Shown here: piece by piece, positions 2,345 through 39,301 of the stretch
Numbering within the stretch: position 1 is the first letter of the stretch
Layout of the letters: each line of letters starts with the position of its first letter
Source: Carnobacterium pleistocenium FTR1
GTDB lineage: Bacteria > Bacillota > Bacilli > Lactobacillales > Carnobacteriaceae
Direction of reading: 5' to 3'
Assembly: GCF_000744285.1 (NCBI RefSeq)
Contig: NZ_JQLQ01000002.1
Location: 434,001-498,000, forward strand
DNA length: 64,000 bases
Notes under the pieces: generated by a model
The model's input: only the letters and a program-made list of their open reading frames with translations
Told to the model about the DNA's origin: nothing
Database searches by the model: none
Position numbers and translations under genes: made by a program

Positions 2345-4387
2345 ATGGAAAAACATAAAGAACCATCAAATCATCATGATCATAGCGACATGGATCACAG
2401 CAGTATGGATCACAGCAGTATGAGCCATACTGGTGGGCATTCGGGACATCATGCAATGATGATTGAGGATTTCAAAAAAAGGTTTTGGGTCTCATTGATT
2501 CTAGCAGTTCCTATTTCTATTTTATCTCCAATGTTCCAAATGCTTTTTGGATATGAAATTCTTTTTTTAGGAGATAATATTCTGTTGTTTGTTCTATCAA
2601 CTATTCTTTTTTTCTACGGAGGAAAACCATTTCTTACAGGAGCATGGAGTGAACTGAAATCACGAACCCCAGCAATGATGATGTTGATTTCGTTAGCGAT
2701 CATTACAGCGTATTTCTACAGCACATTAACGACATTTTTTATTTCTGGTAGTGATTTTTTCTTTGAATTGGCTACTTTAATTGCTATTATGCTTCTTGGT
2801 CATTGGATCGAGATGAAATCAATTATGGGAGCTTCAAAAGCTTTAGAAGCGTTAATTAAATTAATGCCAAAAGAAGCACACAAAATTGATGAAGCGGGTA
2901 ACATTATTGAAGTAACGGTAGAAGATTTAAAACCGGGGGATAAAATTCTTGTCAAATCAGGTGAAAAAATCCCTCTAGATGGCACTATTTATGAAGGAAC
3001 ATCTGCTATAGACGAATCCATGCTAACTGGAGAATCTTTACCGGTAGAGAAGAGCCCTGGAATGGATGCAATCGGTGCATCCGTTAATGGTGAAGGAGTT
3101 TTGAAAATCGAAGTGAATAAAGTCGGGAATGATACGTATCTATCTCAAGTTATTCAGTTAGTTCAAGAAGCTGAGACTACAAAATCTAAAGCACAAGGAT
3201 TTGCTGATATTGCCGCCAAATGGCTCTTTTATGTAGCTGTCGTAGTTGGTTTAGTTACGGTTATTTATTGGTCAGTTACTGGTGATTTTGATTTTGCTTT
3301 AGAACGGATGGTGACCGTATTGATTATTGCTTGTCCACATGCATTAGGGCTCGCAGGACCTTTAGTGACTTCAAGATCAACTTCGATTGCAGCTAGTAAA
3401 GGGTTGTTGATCCGTAATCGGATTGCTTTTGAAGGAGCATATAAAATCGATAAAATCGTTTTTGATAAAACAGGCACGTTAACAGAAGGTAACTTTGGGA
3501 TAACCGATATTCAGCCTGTTGAAGGGGTAAGCGAATCTGAATTATTAACTTTAGCTTATTCAGTTGAAACCCAATCAGATCATCCAATTGCTAAGGGTAT
3601 CGTTAAAGAAGGTAAAGAACGCAAATTAGAAATCTATGATGTTAAAAATTACCGTAATTTAGCAGGTAAGGGATTAACAGCGACTGTAAAAGGAATAGAG
3701 ATTTCAGTTGTCAGCCCAGGAGCTATGAGAAAAGATCAAATTTCTTTTGATGAAAAAAGCTATGAAACAATGGCTCAACAAGGAAAAACGGTTGTGTTCG
3801 TCTTGAAAAGCAATGAATTGCAAGGCATGATCGCATTAGCGGATATCATCAGAGAATCTTCTTATAAAGTAATCAAGCAGTTGAATGATTTAGGTATTGA
3901 GACCATCATGATGACCGGAGATAATAAAAAAGTGGCTAATTATGTAGGCGATAAATTAGGGCTTTCACAAGTAATCGCTGAAGTTCTTCCTCATGAAAAG
4001 TCTAAGAAAGTATCTGAATTAAAAGAAGATGGTAAAAAGGTAGCTATGATCGGAGACGGAATCAATGATGCTCCAGCTTTAGCAGAATCTGATGTTGGGA
4101 TAGCAATAGGGGCAGGTACCGATGTTGCTATTGAAACCGCAGATATTATTTTAGTGAATAGCAATCCGGTAGATGTATTGAATATTATCAAATTATCTAA
4201 AGCTAGTCACAAAAAAACGATTGAAAACTTTATATGGGCAGCAGGGTATAATGTGATAGCTCTTCCACTAGCAGCAGGCGTTTTAATTAACCAAAATATT
4301 TTAATTACGCCAGCTATTGGAGCAGTTGTGATGTCTTTAAGTACCATTATTGTTGCAATAAATGCGCAAATGTTAAAAATTGATTGA
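2345..4387 (+). CDS. copB: Copper-exporting P-type ATPase, CopB type
   Basis: This 680-residue P1B-type ATPase begins with a His/Met-rich tail (residues about 8-40, repeated MDHSSM units) instead of CxxC metal-binding domains. The membrane metal-site motif is Cys330-Pro-His, the CPH form of the CopB subgroup, rather than the CPC of CopA. The phosphorylated Asp374 lies in DKTGTLT, the TGES actuator motif is present as TGESLPVEK, and the ATP-binding hinge is GDGINDAP near 570. It would pump copper out of the cytoplasm. A CopY-type operator lies in its promoter, and a terminator follows at 4440. The metal could also be silver; the class is clear. Confidence 0.93.
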
Positions 4388-29410: not shown

Positions 29411-29593
29411 ACTTCTACATGGAAGGCCGGTTCACGAAGAAGTGGCGTGGCAATGTAGCCCTACTTCCTTATGAAATCGCTCTTCACGTAAGAGTGATAT
29501 CAAAAGAGGTCGTCACTCTTTGGTCAAAGCGGGTTTCACGAAGGAGTAAAGCACTAAAAACCTGCTACTACGCCGTGAATACAATAAAAATCC
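29411..29593 (+). repeat. 52-bp hairpin-unit array B1 (three full units plus part of a fourth)
   Basis: Units begin at 29411, 29463, 29515 and 29567, exactly 52 bp apart. Each opens ACTnnTnnnTnnAA (later units CAAAGC or GAAATC) and has TTCACGnAGnAGT near position 20-33, so the two ends of that segment form an ACTTCT/AGAAGT-type hairpin, followed by a spacer of about 18 nt. The region can be read as a 106-codon frame, but that frame has no protein-like character. It sits between convergent pepF and a small membrane protein gene. Confidence 0.85.
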
Positions 29594-29623
29594 TATGTGG
29601 CGTCACATAACTCTCTTTACAAT

Positions 29624-29654
29624 AAAAAAACCTTTGCGAAAATCGCAAAGGTTT
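29624..29654 (-). terminator. Minus-strand terminator for the small membrane protein gene
   Basis: AAACCTTTGCGA and TCGCAAAGGTTT form a 12-bp stem with a 3-nt loop. The T-run follows on the minus strand (A-run at 29624-29630 on +). The 29655-29834 stretch holds nothing else I can support. Confidence 0.75.
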
Positions 29655-29834
29655 AAAAAAGGGGGTATGAATTACTCATTTATGGGGGTAAATAAGTAGA
29701 AAAGAAAAAGTTTATAGGTTTGGTATGTCTTTAGTATAGACGCTAGATATGAAAAATTTACGATGGTTTCTTTCTGATTTGTGACAATGAATACAAGAAA
29801 GTGTGAAGATTTTAGGAAGAAAACCTTAATTGAG

Positions 29835-30113
29835 TTAAGCCATTAGGAGTGTGAAGATAGTGAAACCTAAAAAAGCAATAATCAATAAGTTAAGAATCAA
29901 TAAAATAATCGTATACGTTTGGCTTCTGGCTTTTAATGATAAAATCATTGATAAGCTATTAAATAAAATGGCAGCAATGAGAGTACCAAGAAAAATAGGA
30001 AAGCTAAACAATGCAAATTGATTTTGAATAATAATAGAGGTAAGGGTTAAGACGATTGAAAGGAAAACTAAAATAGTTGGCCATTTTTGAGTATTTTTTT
30101 TAGTATTATACAT
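29835..30113 (-). CDS. Small membrane protein of unknown function (92 aa)
   Basis: This 92-residue protein has three predicted membrane spans (about 13-31, 36-56 and 68-91) and a short Lys/Asn-rich N-terminus. I do not recognise the family. GGAG lies about 12 bases before the ATG and a terminator follows on the same strand, which supports expression. No operon partner is adjacent. The 30114-30382 gap upstream contains no clear feature. Confidence 0.6.
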   Translation of the reverse strand: MYNTKKNTQKWPTILVFLSIVLTLTSIIIQNQFALFSFPIFLGTLIAAILFNSLSMILSLKARSQTYTIILLILNLLIIAFLGFTIFTLLMA

Positions 30114-30382
30114 TGAATTAGAACTCCATTCTTTTTAATCTATATTATCGACAGTTCTAAGTATACAATGCGGTATTCTGCATAACAATGATTTCCTAAA
30201 AGATGACTTATTTTTGTAAGAAAGGCAATAAAACAAATTTGTCTAACGCTGAAGTAATAAGTTTGTTCGAAAAATAACGTATTTAGATGACAAATCACAT
30301 TTTAGAAAACCAGTAGGTAACTACTAATGACTGCTCAATCAAGTTGATTTTTGTTTAACCTGATCGAACAGACATTATAAGT

Positions 30383-31363
30383 TTACTTTCTTCGTTTAGT
30401 CTCAATAAAACCTTGGTAGAGTGAAGAGAAAGCTGCAAAAAGAATGCCGGTTATTGGGAAAATAATCCAAGCCGTACCCCAAGCATTGTAAACAAAACCT
30501 AAGAATAAATAAACAGCCGTGGCTACCGGAAAGACGACTCCTGCAATTGTATCTGTTAGTTTACTGGCAATAACTTTTTCAGGCTTATACTCACCAAGTG
30601 AAAGCAGTTTTTCGTAGGTTGAGTATAGAATGCCATAAAAAACGAATAAGAAAACACCAACAGCTACAAATCCCAATAGAAAAATGACAGACCAAGCATT
30701 ATCATCGCCTAAAAAAACAACAGCTAGTAGTAATGAAATCGGGGCTAAAATGCAAAGAATTACACCAGAAGCGATGGCTTTTGCAAAACTAGGTTTAAAA
30801 TCGTTCATTTCTCGATTTAAATTCTCACGCGTAACAGGATCAAGTACAATCACCTTTTTATCAAAAGCGTATTGTTCTTCTTTTAGCCCAAAAACAATGA
30901 AGATACCAACCGCGATAGCAACGAAAAGAAAAAGCGGAATGATGGCCAATAAGTTGATCCTGTCCATGGCTGCTGAAGAAGGAGAAACTAGCATAGCAAT
31001 TTCGCGAAATAAAATTAGCATTGCAGGAGCTAAGATACAAAGGAAAACACCAGTTGCGATGGCCAACCCGAATTTTGTCCGGTGCTGCATAAACTCGTCA
31101 ACTTGGTTTTCTGATAACAAAACGGAATGTTTATCAACGTGTTCGGATTCAGTTTCTAAGTTGTACTCTTCAATGATCTCATCGATATTGCCAAATTCAG
31201 ATAGAACTGTTCCAATCGCTTCATTTTCACTTTTGCCTTCATTTTTTAACTGATGGTACTTATCTTCCATGGTGGTGAGCATGTCCTGTTTAAGCTGTAA
31301 CATTTCAGTAGTCCGAGGCAAATTAACAAAAACCGATTCAACATATTTTTTTATTGTATCCAT
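30383..31363 (-). CDS. HAAS-domain membrane protein, partner of PadR regulator
   Basis: This 326-residue protein begins with an amphipathic helical domain (1-70, KKYVESVFVNLPRTTEMLQL...) of the HAAS/permease-prefix type, with the FGNIDEIIEEY segment. Two similar two-helix membrane blocks follow (around 95-165 and 195-260, both containing LCILAP), then a final helical pair. The duplicated LCILAP segments suggest an internal repeat. It starts five bases after padR, the usual PadR-HAAS gene pair, where the membrane protein is the regulated partner of the repressor. Function beyond envelope or stress sensing is unknown. Confidence 0.75.
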   Translation of the reverse strand: MDTIKKYVESVFVNLPRTTEMLQLKQDMLTTMEDKYHQLKNEGKSENEAIGTVLSEFGNIDEIIEEYNLETESEHVDKHSVLLSENQVDEFMQHRTKFGLAIATGVFLCILAPAMLILFREIAMLVSPSSAAMDRINLLAIIPLFLFVAIAVGIFIVFGLKEEQYAFDKKVIVLDPVTRENLNREMNDFKPSFAKAIASGVILCILAPISLLLAVVFLGDDNAWSVIFLLGFVAVGVFLFVFYGILYSTYEKLLSLGEYKPEKVIASKLTDTIAGVVFPVATAVYLFLGFVYNAWGTAWIIFPITGILFAAFSSLYQGFIETKRRK

Positions 31364-31368
31364 GAGTG

Positions 31369-31695
31369 CTACTCCTCCTCAACAAATTTAGTCATCACAT
31401 TTTTTGTATCCAACCATTCGCTTATTTTATCCTGATAGGTTTTTCTGCCTAAAGGTGTAATTTTATAATAAGTGCGAGGCTTTCCATTGGTTTCTGTACT
31501 AGAATAGGATTGAATAAGATTCCCTTTTTCTAATCGATTGAATGCAGAATAAAGAGTGGTTTCCTTCATCACGTATTCTCCATTAGTCATTTTTTTGATT
31601 GTGTTTGAAATTTGATAGCCATAAGAGTCTTCTTTCATTAAAATAGACAATAGAATCAAGCTATTGAACCCTCGCATGACATCACTTGATATCAA
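31369..31695 (-). CDS. PadR-family transcriptional regulator
   Basis: This 108-residue protein has a winged helix of the PadR type: RGFNSLILLSILMKEDSYGY at the N-terminus, then the recognition region TLYSAFNRLEKGNLI and the wing GKPRTYYKITPLGR, with a short C-terminal dimer helix. The start is a TTG at 31695, five bases after GAGGTG; the first ATG is 18 bases further in and lacks a ribosome site. It is first in a two-gene operon with the HAAS protein and probably represses it and itself. Confidence 0.88.
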   Translation of the reverse strand: MISSDVMRGFNSLILLSILMKEDSYGYQISNTIKKMTNGEYVMKETTLYSAFNRLEKGNLIQSYSSTETNGKPRTYYKITPLGRKTYQDKISEWLDTKNVMTKFVEEE

Positions 31696-31722
31696 ATTAT
31701 CACCTCGTTTTTACTTCATCTA

Positions 31723-31764
31723 TCGTAGTAATTAAAGTATAACTCTTTTACTACGACAGGTAAA
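31723..31764 (-). promoter_or_regulatory. padR promoter with 9-bp inverted-repeat operator
   Basis: On the minus strand TTTACC (31764-31759) and TATACT (31741-31736) are 17 bp apart. TCGTAGTAA (31723-31731) and TTACTACGA (31748-31756) form a perfect 9-bp inverted repeat around the -10. This layout fits autorepression by PadR. From here to 32133 there is no gene, only the terminator at 32024-32070. Confidence 0.65.
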
Positions 31765-32023
31765 GTAACCTGACTTGAAATAGTATATGCTCATTAAAAA
31801 TCATTGACCAAAATTAGTTTCTTTAAATCTTATAAACGATTAAGTAGATATAAAAAAAAGGCTCTTAATGTAATAGATCAGATAAATTGAACCGATTAAT
31901 ATAGTATCGATATTTAGTTGATTGCAAAAAATAGATTGCTTTTTAAAGGAATGATTCATCTTACTTAGTTAAATTTTCTTCCTTTACTTGCTCGTTATTT
32001 CCGACCGCTTTCCTCAGTGTATG

Positions 32024-32070
32024 CAAAAATGACACCATTTTCCTTTCTAATTCAGGAAAATGGTGTCATT
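32024..32070 (-). terminator. Minus-strand terminator for the 58-aa membrane protein gene
   Basis: ATGACACCATTTTCC pairs perfectly with GGAAAATGGTGTCAT. On the minus strand it is followed by TTTTTG. Confidence 0.8.
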
Positions 32071-32133
32071 CTTTATTAATTTTAGAATAAGCTGTCATTG
32101 AATTGACGAAAAAATTATTTGCATTTAAGAAAA

Positions 32134-32310
32134 TCACACCCTAGGTGTCCGATTTTTTCCAATGATAAAAGCCGAAGCTATAATAACCAAACCGATGATA
32201 ATAAATAACGTTCCAATAATCGGGTCCCCTGATTTAACGGGTCCAAAGTAACCAAAAATAATGATTATCAGTCCAACAACCAACAAAAATTTCCCTACAA
32301 TATTTAACAT
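32134..32310 (-). CDS. Small two-span membrane protein (58 aa)
   Basis: This short frame starts at ATG 32310 behind a good GGAGG and ends at TGA 32134. It opens MLNIVGKFLLVVGLIIIIFG, has a short charged turn (PVKSGDP) and a second span (IIGTLFIIIGLVIIASAFII), then the basic tail GKNRTPRV. The glycine-rich spans and size resemble small DUF-type stress membrane peptides of Firmicutes, but I cannot name the family. A minus-strand terminator follows at 32070. It is divergent from hsp20. Confidence 0.7.
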   Translation of the reverse strand: MLNIVGKFLLVVGLIIIIFGYFGPVKSGDPIIGTLFIIIGLVIIASAFIIGKNRTPRV

Positions 32311-32421
32311 AACGACTACCTCCAGTACAATATATACTAGCTAGTATATCAAATAAAGAGAAAAGAGAAAAGTTATTAGAATAAGATAATAGTAGAAAAG
32401 ACATAAGATAGATGGTCTTCG

Positions 32422-32478
32422 TTGACTAGGATTTTGAAACGGATTATACTAAACGTGAGCAATGAGAATACTTGCTCA
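32422..32478 (+). promoter_or_regulatory. hsp20 promoter with 7-N9-7 inverted repeat at the start site
   Basis: TTGACT (32422-32427) and TATACT (32445-32450) are 17 bp apart. TGAGCAA (32456-32462) and TTGCTCA (32472-32478) form an inverted repeat with a 9-bp spacer at the predicted transcription start. The geometry recalls CIRCE, but the bases do not match its GCACTC/GAGTGC core. Confidence 0.65.
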
Positions 32479-32514
32479 AAAGGTCTAAAAAAAAAAGAGA
32501 AAGAAGGAGAGATT

Positions 32515-32934
32515 ATGAGTGATTTATTTCCAGCAGGACGTGATTTCATGAATTTTGGCAAGAATTTTTTCGAGGATCCTTTTGACCACTTATTACCAAG
32601 CACAGCTAATTTCAAAGTAGATATTCGGGAAGAAGTAGACTCTTACATTTTAGAGGCTGAGTTACCGGGTATGGCTAAAGACGCTATTCAATTGAAATAT
32701 GAAGACAATGTTTTATCGATTGGGGCAACTCAAGAGACAAGTAAGGATGAGAAAGATGATGAAGGCAATTACATTCGCAGAGAGCGGTCAACTAAATCAT
32801 ATAGCCGCCAATTCCTATTAAAGAATGTCAAAGAAGAAGATATTGTGGCAAATTTTGAAAATGGCATCTTGAAGGTAACACTCCCTAAAAAAGCTACAGA
32901 CGAAACGACTCCTAAACAAATTGAAATTCACTAA
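32515..32934 (+). CDS. hsp20: Hsp20 / alpha-crystallin small heat shock protein
   Basis: This 139-residue protein has the alpha-crystallin domain at about 35-125 (KVDIREEVDSYILEAELPGM to FENGILKVTLPK) and a C-terminal IEI (I-x-I) motif that docks into neighbouring subunits. It holds unfolding proteins in the cytoplasm without ATP. The ATG at 32515 follows AAGGAGA; a longer frame from 32422 would run through the promoter and was rejected. It is a single gene with its own terminator. Confidence 0.93.
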   Translation: MSDLFPAGRDFMNFGKNFFEDPFDHLLPSTANFKVDIREEVDSYILEAELPGMAKDAIQLKYEDNVLSIGATQETSKDEKDDEGNYIRRERSTKSYSRQFLLKNVKEEDIVANFENGILKVTLPKKATDETTPKQIEIH

Positions 32935-32952
32935 CCAACTAAAAATTATACG

Positions 32953-32988
32953 GGAAGGTGTTGAGGCAAAGGTCTCAGCATCTTTTTT
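32953..32988 (+). terminator. Rho-independent terminator after hsp20
   Basis: AGGTGTTGAG pairs (one G-T pair) with CTCAGCATCT, followed by TTTTTT. Confidence 0.75.
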
Positions 32989-33042
32989 CTTGAATATAGT
33001 TCAAAAAACAGACTAACTGTCTGCTTTTTGAACTGTATTCAA

Positions 33043-33453
33043 TTAATTTTTAGCTAGGTAATCTATGGCTGCTTGTAGGACGGTCCGATCGTTTTCATAA
33101 GTAATGAGAGCCAAAGCCTCTTCAAAATTTAACCATGTGCTATCTAGAACTTCTTCCTCTTGTCTATGAATAGCTTGTTCAGAAGCATATGCAATAAAAT
33201 AAATCACGTCTTTCACTGTACCCTCATATGGAGAATAGCGGACAACGTGTCTAAACTGAGTGTCCAGTTCAACGTTTAGCTGTGTTTCTTCCATAATTTC
33301 TCGTAGTGCAGTTTCTTCTTCCGTTTCAGTACCTTCTGTATGACCTTTTGGGAAAGCCCAGTGGTCTCCATTGTGGTGTTTGATCAATAGAACTTTTGGA
33401 TCAGCTATTTCTTTTGTGATAATGACAGCGCCGCATGATTTTTCTTGCTTCAT
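33043..33453 (-). CDS. Nudix hydrolase, Ap4A-hydrolase (MutT-like) type
   Basis: This 136-residue protein has a complete Nudix box: Gly37-x5-Glu43-x7-Arg51-Glu-x2-Glu-Glu56-x2-Leu. The preceding HHNGDHWAFPKGH is typical of bacterial dinucleoside tetraphosphate hydrolases. It would cleave a nucleoside diphosphate derivative with Mg2+. I chose ATG 33453, eight bases past AGGAGG. A TTG two codons earlier lies too close to that site. Confidence 0.87.
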   Translation of the reverse strand: MKQEKSCGAVIITKEIADPKVLLIKHHNGDHWAFPKGHTEGTETEEETALREIMEETQLNVELDTQFRHVVRYSPYEGTVKDVIYFIAYASEQAIHRQEEEVLDSTWLNFEEALALITYENDRTVLQAAIDYLAKN

Positions 33454-33635
33454 TAGCAATTCCTCCTATAAATCAATTCTTTTGACTAGTATACCAAAAG
33501 TGAGCTTGAAAGGTTAGCGCTGATTGTTTTTGACAAATTGTAAGTGAAATTGGTTGAAAAAAGGGTGTAATTCTTTTATCATTAGAAGGATGATGAAAGA
33601 GACAAAAAATAAACGAACAAAGTAGGAGAAAAGCG

Positions 33636-34757
33636 ATGAAACCTAAATACAATCCATTATTTGAACCTTTTACATTTGCATCGGGAGTCAAAATTGATAA
33701 CCGTTTAATTATGGCACCAATGACAACAAATTCTTCTTTTGAAAATGGCATGGTTACAACGGATGAAAAAAATTATTATAAGAGACGCGTTGCAGGTCTA
33801 GGAGCAGTTGTAACGTCATGTGCTCAAGTGATGGAAAATGGGCGCTTTGCAGGTTCATTAAGTGCAGCGTCAGATAACCGAATCGACAGTCTGTCAAAAC
33901 TAGCAGCAACGATTCAAGAAGAAGGTCCAAAAGCTATCTTGCAAATTTTCCATGTGGGACGACTTGGATCAAAAAGAACTCTAAGAGGCGAACAACCGGT
34001 TAGTGCAAGTGCAATACCTCTTGATAGTGAAGGAGCAGAAGTACCAAGATCTTTATCAGACACGGAAGTACTTGAACTAGTTGATGCATTTGGACAAGCG
34101 ACTAGAAGAGCGATCCAAGCTGGATTTGATGGCATAGAATTGCATGGAGCTAACAATTATATGCTCCAACAATTTTTCTCACCACACTCGAATCGTCGTG
34201 ATGATCACTGGGGCGGCTCACTTGAAAAACGCATGAATTTTCCTTTGGCAGTCGTTCAAGCTGCAAAAAAAGCCATTCAAACTTATGCTGAAAAACCTTT
34301 CATTTTTGGGTACCGTATTTCGCCAGAAGAAATAAAAGAACCTGGAATTACTATAGAAGATACGTTGCAGCTGGTGGCTAAGTTGAAAGAACAAGGATTG
34401 GATTACATTCATGTTTCAACAAATGCATGGACTCAAGGGTCGGTTCGCAAATCAAATGAAGCAACACCTGTTGTTCAACGCATCCAAGAACTTGTTGGGA
34501 AGGATTTTCCAATCATTGCAGTAGGATCGATCATCACACCGGATGATGCTTTGAAGACTATGGAGTTGGGTATACCGATTGTTGCGCTTGGGCGAGAATT
34601 AGTCGTTGAGCCTGATTGGGTCCAAAAAGTAAAAATAGGAAACGAAACAGCTATTCGTAAAAAAATCAAACCAGAGTATCGTAAAGATCTCATGTTGCCA
34701 GATGCCATGTGGGAGTATATCGAAAGCAGACCAGGTTGGTTTCCAATCGTTGATTAA
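33636..34757 (+). CDS. NADH-dependent flavin oxidoreductase (Old Yellow Enzyme family)
   Basis: This 373-residue TIM-barrel flavoprotein has FMN- and substrate-site blocks of the OYE family: KIDNRLIMAPMTT, a Gln/His pair in ILQIFHVGRLG, the barrel motif GIELHGANNYMLQQFFSPHS followed by NRR..WGGSLEKRMNF, and ALGRELVVEPDW at the phosphate end. It reduces activated C=C bonds or similar electrophiles using NAD(P)H; the physiological substrate is unknown. AGGAGA precedes the ATG and a terminator follows. Confidence 0.9.
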   Translation: MKPKYNPLFEPFTFASGVKIDNRLIMAPMTTNSSFENGMVTTDEKNYYKRRVAGLGAVVTSCAQVMENGRFAGSLSAASDNRIDSLSKLAATIQEEGPKAILQIFHVGRLGSKRTLRGEQPVSASAIPLDSEGAEVPRSLSDTEVLELVDAFGQATRRAIQAGFDGIELHGANNYMLQQFFSPHSNRRDDHWGGSLEKRMNFPLAVVQAAKKAIQTYAEKPFIFGYRISPEEIKEPGITIEDTLQLVAKLKEQGLDYIHVSTNAWTQGSVRKSNEATPVVQRIQELVGKDFPIIAVGSIITPDDALKTMELGIPIVALGRELVVEPDWVQKVKIGNETAIRKKIKPEYRKDLMLPDAMWEYIESRPGWFPIVD

Positions 34758-34808
34758 ATAAAGCAGTTTATTTTTGCCAGATAGCATCAGTAGGCTAACA
34801 CCAAAAAA

Positions 34809-34842
34809 GGACTTTTCACTTAAATGTGAGAAGTTTTTTTGT
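34809..34842 (+). terminator. Rho-independent terminator after the OYE-family gene
   Basis: ACTTTTCAC pairs with GTGAGAAGT around TTAAAT and is followed by seven T. Confidence 0.8.
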
Positions 34843-34945
34843 TTTGGGACAAATAGTTTGGATATCTCAAAAAAATTCTTTAGGAATAGATAAGTAATTG
34901 AATGGAAGCTAGCAACATCAAAAATCAAGGTGTTTTTATGCAATA

Positions 34946-34957
34946 AATACGAACGAT
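34946..34957 (+). promoter_or_regulatory. PurBox-like site upstream of the NCS2 permease
   Basis: AATACGAACGAT matches the CGAAC core and A-rich lead of PurR boxes. It lies about 94 bp upstream of the predicted start site, where activating PurBoxes sit in lactococci. A reverse copy, AATGTTCGTATT, is at 35085-35096; AATACGAAC and GTTCGTATT are perfect complements. Confidence 0.5.
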
Positions 34958-35010
34958 TCGAAATGAAAGGGTTTTTAGCTAGGAAATAAGAATAAATGCT
35001 TTTTTAATGC

Positions 35011-35039
35011 TTTACATAAAGTTTTTGAGCGGGTATACT
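35011..35039 (+). promoter_or_regulatory. Sigma-A promoter of the NCS2 permease
   Basis: TTTACA (35011-35016), 17 bp, TATACT (35034-35039). No purine riboswitch fold is visible in the leader that follows. Confidence 0.65.
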
Positions 35040-35112
35040 GACGAAGTGATAAAAATAACGAATTATAAAACAATTATAAAAATTAATGTTCGTATTTAAT
35101 AGGAGGGTCATT

Positions 35113-36519
35113 TTGAAGGAAAAAATAAATAATTCAGAAATAACGATTGAAATGCCAGGGGAAAAGAAAATAAGAGGGAATGAATCGCCGAAAACCGAAT
35201 CGAATCTTCTTTACCAAGTAGACGATAAACCAGGTTTTTTCTTAATGACCCTTTTAGGATTTCAAAATATATTAACAGCTTTTGGTGGAATCATAGCCGT
35301 GCCCTTAGTAATATCTGGCATTGCAGGATTCGGGATCGCAGATACTTCTTATATGATCAGTGCAGCTTTGTTAGGATCTGGTGTTGTTTCGATCATTCAA
35401 TCTAAAGGAATCGGTCCGAAATGGTTTCGTGTAGGAGCTGGTCTTCCAACGATCATGGGAACTGATTTTGGTTTTGTCGGACCAGCCAATGCGGTCATCA
35501 ATACGATGGGCGGAGGCATTGCAGGCTATTTTGGTGGAACCATGATGGGAGCCGTTTTAGAAATCAGCTTAAGTTATTTCATTAAACCGTTAATGAAGTT
35601 TTTCCCACCAGCCGTAACCGGAACCGTTATTACATTGATGGGATTAACGTTGATGCCTGTTGCATTTGACTGGGTTGCTGGTGGAGTTGGATCAGCTAAT
35701 TATGGTTCGTTGCTTAATTTATCGATTGCTACAATCGTATTTTTGATTATTGTTTTACTGAACCATTATGGCAGTTCGAAAATCGGACCTGCAGCTGTCT
35801 TGATTGGGATCGTCATTGGCTATGTGATGTGTATTCCCCTTGGTATGGTTGATTTCGGTCAAGTCGTTCGAGCCAATTGGTTCGCTATGCCACAGCTTTT
35901 TAAATATGGTGTTAGTTTTGATTTGAAATTTGCGATTCCCTTTATCTCAGGCTACTTAGTAACAGTTATTGAAACCGTGGGTGTGATGCAAACAATTGGA
36001 GCTGTAACAGAAACTGAATTAACCGATGATGATATTGCAAATGGTGTCCGAGCAGATGGCGTCGGATCATTTATTGGACCGGCAATTGGGTCAGGCCCAG
36101 TAGCGACATTTAGCCAAAATGCTGGATTGATCCCGTTAACGCGAAATGCCTCTCGATCCGTTGCAATCGCCGCGGGTGTTCTCTTGATGGTAATGAGTTT
36201 CTTACCTAAATTTGCGACACTTGTATCGATTATGCCGATGGCAGTTTTAGGTGGAGCAGGAGTCTTGATGTTCGGTAACGTAGCCGCATCTGGTGTGAAA
36301 TCATTGGCTCGTGTAAATTTTGATAACCGCAATCTAGTCATTGTCGCTGCCGGATTAGGTGTTGGACTAGGCGTGGCTTTCCGTCCTGAAGTAGTAGCTG
36401 GGCTGCCAGGAATTCTTGGTGGATTATTTTCATCTGGTATTTCGGCTGGAACGATCGTTACCTTAGTTTTAAACATTATTTTGAAGGAAAAACCAACTAT
36501 GGAAAGCGAAATAGTTTAA
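35113..36519 (+). CDS. pbuX: NCS2-family xanthine/uric acid-type permease
   Basis: This 468-residue transporter has about 14 spans (7+7) and the nucleobase-ascorbate signature QNAGLIPLTR (QNxGxxxxT[RK]), which separates xanthine/urate carriers from uracil carriers. The usual TM3 and TM8 motifs are present (GTDFGFVGP and YLVTVIETVGV). It would import a purine base with a proton. The start is a TTG at 35113, six bases after AGGAGGG. An upstream ATG frame would translate through the ribosome site. PurR-like boxes lie upstream. Substrate choice among purines is inferred. Confidence 0.83.
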   Translation: MKEKINNSEITIEMPGEKKIRGNESPKTESNLLYQVDDKPGFFLMTLLGFQNILTAFGGIIAVPLVISGIAGFGIADTSYMISAALLGSGVVSIIQSKGIGPKWFRVGAGLPTIMGTDFGFVGPANAVINTMGGGIAGYFGGTMMGAVLEISLSYFIKPLMKFFPPAVTGTVITLMGLTLMPVAFDWVAGGVGSANYGSLLNLSIATIVFLIIVLLNHYGSSKIGPAAVLIGIVIGYVMCIPLGMVDFGQVVRANWFAMPQLFKYGVSFDLKFAIPFISGYLVTVIETVGVMQTIGAVTETELTDDDIANGVRADGVGSFIGPAIGSGPVATFSQNAGLIPLTRNASRSVAIAAGVLLMVMSFLPKFATLVSIMPMAVLGGAGVLMFGNVAASGVKSLARVNFDNRNLVIVAAGLGVGLGVAFRPEVVAGLPGILGGLFSSGISAGTIVTLVLNIILKEKPTMESEIV

Positions 36520-36528
36520 ATAGCCAAA

Positions 36529-36568
36529 TGTTCATCACTCTGATTTAGGGGTGGTGAATGTTTTTTTA
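36529..36568 (+). terminator. Rho-independent terminator after the permease gene
   Basis: TTCATCAC pairs with GTGGTGAA around a 12-nt loop, followed by seven T. Confidence 0.7.
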
Positions 36569-36591
36569 TTTTAGGAAGCTTGGAATGTACA

Positions 36592-36775
36592 ACTTATTCG
36601 TGAAAGCCCATTTCACTTAAAAGTAAAGTAAGAAATAGCATCTACTCCTATGTGAACAAGGTGTTGATGTAGGAGTGGGACGTGAAGATGGGCTTACTTA
36701 TACGTCAAACGAGGTTTCATGTAGAAGTAGACTTGAGAACAGTCCTCACTCTTTCGTGAAATACACACCAAACAG
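36592..36775 (+). repeat. 52-bp hairpin-unit array B2 (three units plus partial)
   Basis: Units start at 36592, 36644, 36696 and 36748, again exactly 52 bp apart. Unit 1 opens ACTTATTCGTGAAA and pairs with TTTCACTTAAAAGT; unit 2 pairs ACTCCTA with TAGGAGT; unit 3 carries CGTCAAACGAGGTTTCATGT. The array ends 20 bases before the stop codon of the NERD gene, on the side downstream of it. Confidence 0.85.
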
Positions 36776-36795
36776 AAAAAATTGAATAGCGATGA

Positions 36796-37707
36796 CTACT
36801 TCTCACTGTAATACGTCATCTGTCGGGATAAATGACGACGATAAGTCATTTTTAAGATCAGTCGAATTCGTTCTTTGGAGTAGCTTGCTCCACACCATTG
36901 GTAAATTCGGTTTGTTGTTATTGGGCTATCAGGAAAGAGCAGTCTAAATTCTAAAATACTTCGCTCAATGGCACTTGTAATGGTTTCTTTGTGAGCACAT
37001 ACAGCGCAAAAGTAAGTTTGTCTTGTATCTCTATAACTAGCTGAGAAACAAACTGGGCATAAAATGCCTTTTTTCAATTGATCAAAATCATAATTCGGTA
37101 ACTTGTCAGGACGATAAGTTTCATTATGTAACTCGCTTAATTTCTTTCCAAGTTCCAGCTGCTTGTTTGTGGTCGAGAAGTTTTGGTTTGATAAAGTATG
37201 AAGGTACTTAGGTAATTGATTTGAAAACAAGAATAGTTTGTTTGGCAGTAGAGAGTAAAGATTGAATTCTGGATTAATAAAAACAATAAGAGGTTGAATC
37301 GGCAATTGGTATCCTAAACTAAGCAGCACGTTATGAAGAAAAGTTGCACTTCTGTCGATTTGTCTCAGGGGATTGAGAATTTTGTAGCCCGATTCTGTGA
37401 AAAAGGATTCTTCTCTATAAAAGTAAGGGCCGGCATAATTTTTAACTTCATATAAATAGACGACATCTGTCGTGATAAGCAGGGAATCGATTTGGAAAAC
37501 AGTGTTTCTATAAGTTAGAACGAGATCATTCAATACAAGACCAGACTGGTTAGATTGATTCATGTAGGCATCAAATTGTTTTTCACCTGCGAAACCTTTT
37601 ACTTGATTTTCATAATTCACTTTTTCCTCAGCTGGTAAATTCATTCGGAAATTCAAAGATTCTAATAGGCGGTGGGTGACCGATTTTGTTCGTTCTTTTA
37701 GTAGCAT
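36796..37707 (-). CDS. NERD-domain nuclease-like protein with zinc ribbon
   Basis: This 303-residue protein has an N-terminal NERD domain of the restriction-endonuclease-like fold. The candidate active-site residues are Glu42 (GFAGEKQF), Asp74 (FQIDSLLITTD) and Glu87-x-Lys89 (YLYEVKNYAG). A four-cysteine zinc ribbon follows at Cys217, Cys220, Cys234 and Cys237. Residues about 262-303 are basic and helical, like a small winged helix. NERD proteins are thought to process DNA; the role of this one is unknown. It starts at an ATG about 12 bases after AAGGAG. Arrays of 52-bp hairpin units lie on both sides of the gene. Confidence 0.82.
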   Translation of the reverse strand: MLLKERTKSVTHRLLESLNFRMNLPAEEKVNYENQVKGFAGEKQFDAYMNQSNQSGLVLNDLVLTYRNTVFQIDSLLITTDVVYLYEVKNYAGPYFYREESFFTESGYKILNPLRQIDRSATFLHNVLLSLGYQLPIQPLIVFINPEFNLYSLLPNKLFLFSNQLPKYLHTLSNQNFSTTNKQLELGKKLSELHNETYRPDKLPNYDFDQLKKGILCPVCFSASYRDTRQTYFCAVCAHKETITSAIERSILEFRLLFPDSPITTNRIYQWCGASYSKERIRLILKMTYRRHLSRQMTYYSEK

Positions 37708-37858
37708 CAGCTTATCGCACTCCTTAACATTTGTTAGTCTCTTTTAGTATAAGAAAAAAATGGCAAAAGTCGTTTTTTATGTCTTAATTCTAATAGAAAA
37801 GAATAGTTATCCATGTGATGTAAATTTTCATGGAAGTGTGGAGAGAAAAGTAGGCTTC

Positions 37859-38031
37859 AGTCTTCCGTGAAATCGGCTAGTACGAAAGAGTGAAGCAAGA
37901 AAATTTCTGAACTCCTACATCAAATGACCCTTCACGAAGGAGTGAGACCAGAAAAATCGCTCACTTCTACGTCAAACGAGGTTTCATGTAGAAGTAGACA
38001 CAAGAAAAGCTCTACTTTTTCGTCAAAGAAC
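37859..38031 (+). repeat. 52-bp hairpin-unit array B3
   Basis: Units start at 37859, 37911 and 37963, with a partial unit at 38014 (spacings 52, 52, 51). Unit 2 opens ACTCCTACATCAAA and pairs with TTCACGAAGGAGT; unit 3 pairs ACTTCTAC with GTAGAAGT around GTCAAACGAGGTTTCAT. Each unit has an AAGAAAA-type spacer. A spurious 64-codon frame covers part of it. Confidence 0.85.
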
Positions 38032-38096
38032 TTTAAAAGAATGCCATCTCTAGGTGGCATAAATTTTCTTGGAAGAGTAGAGAGGAAAAAGGGTTC

Positions 38097-38269
38097 AGTC
38101 TTTCGTGAAGCGGTCTAGTACGAAAGAGTACAGCAAGAAAATCTCTGCACTCCTACGTCAATTGACCCTTGACGTAGGAGTCAGACCAGAAAAGGCGCTC
38201 ACTTCTACGTCAAACGAGGTTTCATATAGAAGTAGACCCAAGAAAAGTTTTACTTCTTCGTCAACGAAC
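38097..38269 (+). repeat. 52-bp hairpin-unit array B4, tandem duplicate of B3
   Basis: Units start at 38097, 38149 and 38201, with a partial unit at 38252, the same spacings as B3 and an offset of 238 bp. Flanks also match (TAAATTTTCnTGGAAG ahead of both), so a segment of about 238 bp was duplicated and has since diverged. In unit 2 the arms are perfect: ACTCCTACGTCAA against TTGACGTAGGAGT. Confidence 0.85.
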
Positions 38270-38343
38270 CCAACTTAAATAAGCAACTTTAGCTCTTAGG
38301 TAATGATAGTGCATTTATTTTAGTAAAAAATAGTTAAGAGTGT

Positions 38344-38362
38344 TATACTGAAAACGATTTCT
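38344..38362 (+). promoter_or_regulatory. -10 element with overlapping cre-like site before the aldo/keto reductase
   Basis: TATACT (38344-38349) runs into TGAAAACGATTTCT (38349-38362), which fits the CcpA cre pattern TGWAANCGNTNWCA except for the last base. The -35 is weak. Carbon repression of the following gene is possible. Confidence 0.4.
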
Positions 38363-38389
38363 CAGATAAAAGGAAGTGAGCTGACGAAT

Positions 38390-39301
38390 ATGAAAAGAAT
38401 GTTTTTAGGTAAAAGTGAATTAATGATACCAAATATTGCGTTAGGATGTATGTCAATGGGGAATTTAACTCCTCAAGAAGCTAGCAAAGTTGTCAACAAT
38501 GCGTTAGATTTAGAAATCGACTTCTTTGATTTAGCTGATATTTATGGCGGAGGAAAAGCAGAAGAAATGTTTGGGAAAGTGATCGAAATGGATCCTCCTA
38601 TCCGCGAAAAAATGTTGATCCAATCTAAAGTTGGAATTCGAAAAGACAGTTATGATTTTTCGAAAAAACATCTATTGGAAAGCGTAGACGGCGTTCTTAA
38701 ACGTTTGCAAACAGATTATTTGGATGTTCTGTTATTACACCGTCCAGACGCACTAGTTGAACCTGAAGTTGTAGCCGAAGTTTTTGATGAATTGGAAAGA
38801 AGCGGTAAAGTACGAAACTTTGGGGTCAGCAATCACAATCCGACTCAAATCGAATTATTGAAAAATTATGTCAAACAGCCTCTTGTTGCAAACCAAATGC
38901 AATTCAGCGTGGGACACACTGGAATGGTGGATGCCGGTATTAATGTGAATACGAAATTTGATAGTGGGATAGACCGAGATGGCGGAGTATTGGATTATAG
39001 CCGTATAGAAGACATGACCTTACAAGCTTGGTCACCGATAAAAAGTGGTGGTGAAATTTTTGTAGATAATGCAAACTTCCCAGAAATAAATGCTATTTTG
39101 AAAGAAATTGGAGGACGGTACGGTTTGTCTAACTCAGCTATGGCTATTGCTTGGATTTTACGTCATCCTGCTCATATGCAAGCTATTGTTGGAACGATGA
39201 CACTGGAACGCCTGAGCGACTACGCTAAAGCCTCTGAAGTAAGTATAACGCATGATGAATGGTACGATATCTACCGAGCTGCTGGCAATAAATTACCATA
39301 A
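38390..39301 (+). CDS. Aldo/keto reductase
   Basis: This 303-residue AKR barrel has the catalytic tetrad visible: Asp47 (FFDLADIYGGG), Tyr52, Lys80 (IQSKVGI) and His117 (LLLHRPD). C-terminal blocks for NADP binding are present (IGGRYGLSNSAMAIAWILRHP). It resembles the YdhF subgroup of uncertain substrate. It would reduce aldehydes or ketones in the cytoplasm. It stands alone downstream of the B3/B4 arrays, with a weak cre-like site over its promoter and a strong terminator after it. Confidence 0.9.
   Translation: MKRMFLGKSELMIPNIALGCMSMGNLTPQEASKVVNNALDLEIDFFDLADIYGGGKAEEMFGKVIEMDPPIREKMLIQSKVGIRKDSYDFSKKHLLESVDGVLKRLQTDYLDVLLLHRPDALVEPEVVAEVFDELERSGKVRNFGVSNHNPTQIELLKNYVKQPLVANQMQFSVGHTGMVDAGINVNTKFDSGIDRDGGVLDYSRIEDMTLQAWSPIKSGGEIFVDNANFPEINAILKEIGGRYGLSNSAMAIAWILRHPAHMQAIVGTMTLERLSDYAKASEVSITHDEWYDIYRAAGNKLP

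Follow-up and report, generated by a model that had tools for sequence, protein, structure and literature searches.

Phased repeat arrays beside NERD-domain genes in Carnobacterium pleistocenium and other Bacilli: predicted sites of the NERD protein

Arrays and genes at the locus

The sequence considered here (the window) is a stretch of 64,000 nucleotides from Carnobacterium pleistocenium FTR1 (contig NZ_JQLQ01000002.1, positions 434,001 to 498,000), and positions without a prefix refer to it. It carries four arrays of a 52-bp hairpin unit, here called A to D, three of which bracket a gene for a NERD-domain protein: B lies on the 3' side of this gene, C and D on its 5' side. An initial annotation, made from the letters alone, had described the four arrays, and we find them where it placed them, with copies elsewhere as well; the NERD gene in their midst had been overlooked. 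The features are as follows.

29411..29593, plus strand: array A, seven alternating half-sites (three hairpin units and a last half) in a 52-bp register
36592..36775, plus strand: array B, seven half-sites, 3' side of the NERD gene
36796..37707, minus strand: gene for a NERD-domain protein of 303 aa (PF08378, 69.6 bits, cut-off 22.1)
37826..38031, plus strand: array C, eight half-sites, 5' side of the NERD gene
38065..38269, plus strand: array D, eight half-sites, segmental duplicate of C
35086..36519, plus strand: xanthine/uracil permease family gene, a flanking neighbour outside the system; orthologous flank in other species
38390..39301, plus strand: aldo/keto reductase gene, a flanking neighbour outside the system

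The unit starts of A (29411/29463/29515/29567) and B (36592/36644/36696/36748) are exactly 52 bp apart and those of C (37859/37911/37963/38014) and D (38097/38149/38201/38252) run 52, 52 and 51, just as had been claimed; beyond the units first described, C (from 37826) and D (from 38065) each have one extra leading half-site. C and D have 86% matches at a period of 238 bp and, because they are a segmental duplicate, the 12 full units are not independent of each other. Each array is best read as a series of 14-bp half-sites of alternating orientation, with a consensus in this genome of about ACTYCTACGTSAAA and start-to-start steps of 19 bp within a hairpin and 33 bp over the A-rich spacer. Among 68 array chains from six species, 149 of 152 steps within hairpins are 19 bp long; of 159 steps over the spacer, 136 are 33 bp and 17 more are 32 bp (search ranges of 17-21 and 31-35 were imposed). 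When the same-strand spacings of strong half-sites are counted free of any register (166 pairs within 300 bp, in the window and the 60 stretches L071-L130), 62 pairs are at 52 bp, 40 at 104, 11 at 156 and 7 at 51. The four arrays reach chained half-site scores of 96, 108, 120 and 109, and none of 60 first-order Markov resamplings of the window exceeds 19, but this score is not independent, its matrix being derived partly from these same arrays; the copies found elsewhere are better evidence for them. Array A lies between convergent genes, with no NERD gene alongside, and has an orthologous array site in four other species of the genus.

The NERD protein has the residues E42, Q72-x-D74 and E87-x-K89, which we presume to form a PD-(D/E)XK nuclease core, followed by a zinc ribbon (C217/C220/C234/C237). 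Of 95 homologues, 92-95 retain each of E42, Q72, D74, E/D87 and K89, and 89-92 each of the four cysteines. When the products of this gene and seven other NERD genes were scanned with Pfam, NERD alone reached its cut-off; against solved structures the best E was 0.9 by sequence.

Related arrays in other genomes

A covariance model was built from 36 of the 39 listed units, two near-duplicates of L010 and L013 being left out. Applied to the 2.66-Mb genome of the window itself, G000, it gives 44 matches at E<=1 which, clustered, are read as about a dozen arrays. At E<=0.001 nine of the 18 genomes of the family sample match; these are the six species of the genus, each with 12-31 matches, and three genomes of other genera, with 1-3 matches. 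In the order sample there are matches at 1e-4 in 7 of 295 genomes, namely the genus and G167. Thus, further copies exist across the genus and beyond. The initial annotation knew of no described element of this design, and no named repeat family has been found to match: there is no Rfam match at the gathering threshold in the window, and in the open-access literature searched we met neither a paper linking NERD genes to repeat arrays nor a description of such a system.

The stems vary among genera, for example ACTTGTTCACAG..CTGTGATCAAGT, ACTTGTGAGGATA..TACCCTTACAAGT and ACTTGATTAATAG..CTATTAATCAAGT. A skeleton pattern, three units of ACT(27)AGT(19) with one mismatch permitted, matches 19 of 395 genomes of the order and its reversed control 3 of 395, one of these three being also an array genome. 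A homologue of the window's NERD protein is present in 18 of the 19 skeleton-array genomes, compared with 75 of the 395 overall (Fisher, 3e-13); a search of the class found homologues in 55 of 348 genomes, and in a sample of 299 genomes of the phylum 4 match, all of the class Bacilli. The sole skeleton-positive genome without a NERD match, G295 (G295:C6:28436-29186), has repeats that resemble another element. By a pattern scan of genome contigs, an array was also found in Atopococcus tabaci DSM 17538 (L131, L133), where a NERD gene (L131:2721-3671, minus strand) directly adjoins the array (2579-2717). The other three of the five stretches fitting the pattern look unrelated: two loci of Candidatus Parabeggiatoa have palindromic repeats of another kind (L132:1900-1960, L134:3290-3350), and a Saccharibacteria locus has isolated hairpins.

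Arrays beside NERD genes and their period

For the association of arrays with NERD genes, 69 loci were fetched, 30 of them the best per genome and 39 picked by hand from the listed matches, spread across genomes and away from contig ends; a gene fragment (L173) and a locus at a contig edge (L176) were excluded, leaving 67. As controls we took 40 stretches of similar size, lying some 25 kb (in one case 12 kb) away from NERD genes; 34 are from genomes represented among the 67 loci. One 12-mer occurs at least five times in the flanks of 57 of the 67 NERD loci, as against 2 of the 40 controls. A clear best lag (a score of at least 15, lags 30-100) is found in 54 NERD loci, in every case at 51, 52 or 53; seven controls have one, at 30, 33, 36, 51, 52, 52 and 99, and those at 51-52 may be dispersed arrays. 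A signal at lags 50-53 is present on both sides of the gene in 29 NERD loci, only 3' in 23, only 5' in 11 and on neither side in 4, while the controls have it on one side in 10 cases, on both in none and on neither in 30. Hence, repeats with this lag flank the enzyme gene on at least one side in 63 of 67 NERD loci, compared with 10 of 40 controls.

With 28 loci added from the class search (the best per genome among the listed matches), 81 of 95 NERD loci have a clear period: 41 (4 loci), 42 (6), 51 (27), 52 (38), 53 (4), 61 (1) and 63 (1). None of the 81 departs by more than 2 bp from a multiple of 10.5, the periods corresponding to about 4, 5 or 6 turns of the helix, and the loci of 41-42 and 61-63 bp group together in one part of the NERD protein tree; the array period thus goes with the protein clade. 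Since NERD loci are related, the independent shifts of period are few; in clusters at 50% protein identity, which correct only partly for kinship, 28 of 31 have clear arrays. The suggestion that spacing is under selection is strongly supported by these periods, as is the idea that a 52-bp unit, close to five turns, presents its sites on one face of the DNA, other protein clades using about 4 or 6. Seven extra loci (L320-L326) were examined after the main counts, and four have a clear period: L322 (52), L325 (51), L323 (40) and L326 (42). The NERD gene of L293 has arrays on both sides (818-1112 and 2483-3029) whose half-sites follow each other at 21 bp, or two turns, and lack a strong dyad. Such a dyad occurs within the unit of only 45 of the 81 array loci and is absent from 36; on account of this count and of L293, the general feature is the near-whole-turn spacing and not the hairpin.

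Pairing within the units

The initial annotation had held that paired changes keep the stems, and this is borne out in part. The two hairpin arms of one unit are more complementary than arms shuffled within arrays (none of 500 shuffles reaches the observed stem value), so that a test for covarying stem pairs does find covariation; by position the excess lies at 4, 5 and 7 (reached by 4, 1 and 1 of 500 shuffles). The effect is modest, however, and does not extend to position 9 (185/500) or to position 11, which is less complementary than the shuffles (496/500 reach it). Arms facing each other across the spacer have no excess (stem, 449/500). The covarying arms are what one would expect of RNA elements, the arrays being transcribed into rows of stem-loops, an alternative that had been raised at the outset. 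Against it, wobble pairs show no strand bias (92 G.U versus 101 A.C), so that neither strand is favoured as RNA, Rfam has no match, the period is near whole helical turns and over a third of the array loci (36/81) have no strong dyad; we regard transcribed stem rows as very improbable. The pairing pattern fits better with duplex DNA bearing dyad sites, with cruciforms or with conversion between arms. In view of the restricted dyad and the strandless wobbles, the selected feature looks like the phasing of protein sites with the turns of duplex DNA.

Divergence of arrays and proteins

Array sequence diverges along with the NERD protein. Counted by protein identity, the pairs of NERD loci with at least five array 10-mers in common are 24/25 (80-100%), 8/14 (70-80%), 3/15 (60-70%), 9/140 (50-60%), 14/261 (40-50%) and 21/2784 (below 40%); one pair at 100% lay outside these bins. 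The presumed nuclease residues and the zinc ribbon are kept. In Bacilli, genes of this NERD subfamily have tandem arrays alongside that are specific, in sequence, to the gene.

Within the genus, the half-sites of G003 are ACTGTATCGTGCAA in the dispersed arrays and nearly identical next to the gene, both differing alike from those of other species. Elsewhere single positions agree: C is preferred at position 7 in G004 (adjacent 6/6, dispersed 55/61) and G005 (13/13 and 36/53), and T at position 5 in G002 (11/11 and 36/43). Concerted change of adjacent and dispersed half-sites is shown for G003, and partly elsewhere, at these single positions. When dispersed half-sites are scored with the NERD-adjacent matrices of the six species, the species' own matrix is the best clearly in G003 and by 0.2 in G000 and G005.

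Another, different family of arrays goes with a second NERD paralogue, whose array in G001 (L208:2520-3140) matches 22 places in G000. Both array families of the genus have many dispersed copies outside genes. In G000 the second family, of 52-bp period, is likewise dispersed, and one copy adjoins an array of the first (G000:C2:963960-964357).

The difference in array sequence between paralogues, together with the retained active-site residues, could also suit a defence or toxin-like nuclease that the array next to its gene keeps inactive. This would leave the dispersed arrays far from the gene unexplained; moreover, the window gene has a permease and an aldo/keto reductase as neighbours rather than defence genes, and a PADLOC scan of three proteins gave only weak matches (the best, to PglW, with E 9e-5). 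We consider such a nuclease in check improbable.

Placement, age and mobility

The 68 arrays of the genus (found with the model from units of four species, so that divergent arrays are under-counted; the weak matches L079 and L080 were omitted) lie in 42 convergent, 16 co-directional and 10 divergent gaps, gene calls for these counts being longest open frames. Among the 55 sites not beside the first NERD gene (NERD-1, the family of the window), 37 are convergent and 2 divergent, while the other gaps of the fetched stretches are convergent in 11-14% of cases over six minimum gap sizes. The second family, with ten sites of which two adjoin its own NERD gene, has 5 convergent, 2 co-directional and 3 divergent.

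Where orthologous places were compared, G001 has an array remnant at the site of L075 and other sequence at that of L071. Spacer identity is 0.62 in 30 orthologous pairs and 0.58-0.59 elsewhere, a weak signal. Relative to G004, two places about 44 kb apart are joined in G005 (L125:4316 versus L117:4279 and L118:2858), and an array lies some 140 bp from the point of junction, which suggests an array-linked rearrangement. A terminator-like hairpin with a half-site-like stem (ACTTTTCCAT..GGAAGAGT) adjoins an array at L075:3960-3995 and near 12640 of L316; of the two species concerned, one retains merely an array remnant.

The NERD protein is not a cargo of phages or plasmids as far as the collections searched are concerned, having no match in 72,556 plasmid records (1e-8) or 50,697 phage records (1e-5); among viral contigs, 4 and 60 stretches fit a peptide pattern and none was confirmed as a NERD protein.

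Interpretation

The arrays of the window are probably DNA sites of the NERD protein encoded between B and C, i.e. this would be a nuclease with cognate arrays. Binding of the protein to the half-sites would be cooperative and would run along a single face of the duplex. Nuclease activity at the arrays, followed by recombination or repair, may then seed, expand and homogenise arrays in intergenic DNA, and mostly between convergent genes these would be tolerated or used. The host may benefit, through nucleoid or supercoil domains or through termination, or else the repeats may be a population that maintains itself. More broadly, the Bacilli would contain a large, undescribed class of systems in which a NERD nuclease with a zinc ribbon reads private phased arrays; protein and array would have diverged together into numerous families foreign to one another, of which a genome has several. 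The protein would form a filament on one face of the DNA, its step (4, 5 or 6 turns) being fixed by clade, and with arrays seeded or maintained between convergent genes the system would be a non-transposase counterpart of RAYT/REP. To this reading as a whole we give a probability of a little over one half (about 0.53).

Several observations weigh against the explanation by a nuclease and its arrays. Fourteen of the 95 NERD loci are without a clear array and, of the extra loci, L320 (42, score 8) and L324 (61, score 29, with 31 nearly equal) are weak, while the flanking repeats of L321 have their best lag at 82, then 49, 51 and 48, which fits no single whole-turn period. The AlphaFold model of the NERD protein is unusable (mean predicted local distance difference test score 36, two sequences). 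In the cross-scoring, the own species is best in only 3 of 6 species, the dispersed half-sites of G002 scoring 10.0 with their own matrix and 14.3 with that of G000; at position 11 of the G002 half-sites, C stands next to the gene (10/11) and G is commonest in the dispersed arrays (25/43). In G004 (G004:C2:2111548-2112456) and G005 (G005:C8:1101395-1102302) the window's NERD gene has an interrupted orthologue, with one stop in one case and two pieces in the other, and the arrays persist. With respect to present-day mobility, for 43 of 61 genus array loci the corresponding place in another species also carries an array, so that most of them are old, and comparison of ortholog stretches revealed no clean empty site. 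Hopping in the neighbourhood of the gene was suggested by the clustering of the first family in five genomes (p 0.015, 0.077, 0.017, 0.004 and 0.0002) and has been rejected, since it is not supported when labels are swapped with the second family (p 0.05, 0.85, 0.89, 0.12 and 0.07; the G002 row is unsafe, as the position used for the second NERD gene is, from the protein tree, probably that of a gene of another clade). The second family clusters at its own gene in one of the five genomes.

The arrays could instead be chromosome-structuring or regulatory sites, with NERD as a host DNA-binding protein whose nuclease core is structural or rarely used; between convergent genes they would act as nucleoprotein barriers to supercoils, collisions or read-through, and nothing need move. 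The places shared among species, the convergent location, the helical phasing and the lack of matches to the protein in the plasmid, phage and viral collections all agree with this. It accords less well with several NERD paralogues per genome, each with different arrays, with arrays that adjoin the NERD gene itself and with presumed nuclease residues conserved almost without exception; nor would one expect the interruption of NERD-1 in two species or the patchy distribution of NERD, in 75 of 395 genomes of the order. We think structuring sites without mobility unlikely, though a good deal less so than either the RNA or the restrained-nuclease explanation.

If the NERD protein does read these arrays, NERD, a domain widely annotated yet unexplained, would gain a partner with a function, and intergenic repeats that so far lack an explanation, in lactic acid bacteria and other Bacilli, would become parts of one system. 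The NERD genes would also provide a natural series of joint changes in binding specificity and helical step, and the whole-turn step makes the mechanism directly testable in vitro.

Comparison with known systems

By its Pfam score the window protein is a member of the NERD family (PF08378), whose link to arrays is unreported in the open-access literature searched. A casposon NERD nuclease is mentioned in a passage of PMC6563490, and a figure legend of PMC10910872 places NERD among putative CRISPR (clustered regularly interspaced short palindromic repeats) auxiliary genes. CRISPR arrays are also periodic repeats beside a nuclease gene; unlike them, the present arrays have no invariant repeat with unique spacers, stem and spacer parts of the unit both drifting, and the window locus (35086-39301) consists of the permease, NERD and aldo/keto reductase genes without cas genes. 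Phased arrays adjoining NERD genes might nevertheless be mistaken for CRISPR arrays and give rise to false calls.

The EFAR element of Enterococcus faecalis is about 170 bp long and composed of stem-loop modules. As described, it resembles the arrays in size and stem-loop character, and it is not known to be linked with a NERD gene. EFAR is named among the miniature inverted-repeat transposable elements in a passage of PMC3733652.

The closest parallel is with the repetitive extragenic palindromic (REP) sequences, with the bacterial interspersed mosaic elements and REPINs, and with their RAYT (TnpA-REP) enzymes. As passages of PMC8266576 and PMC3116915 describe REPtrons, repeats lie in non-coding DNA beside a nuclease gene, with many copies outside genes, and different REPtrons carry different REPs. 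A nuclease gene with adjacent repeats and dispersed copies is thus a common trait. The differences concern the enzyme and the form of the repeats. RAYT belongs to the HUH/Y1 enzymes, and its substrates are single-stranded palindromes carrying a GTAG-type tag, whereas here there is a NERD protein with a zinc ribbon; no HUH Y1 transposase of the TnpA-REP family was met among the eight NERD-gene products scanned with Pfam, and no common tag (GTAG before a palindrome of 20-50 nt) is visible by eye in the listed units. Unlike REPs, moreover, the arrays are tandem and phased near whole helical turns, and the palindrome is not universal. By analogy, the best reading is that the NERD-array pair would work like REP and RAYT, with an unrelated enzyme.

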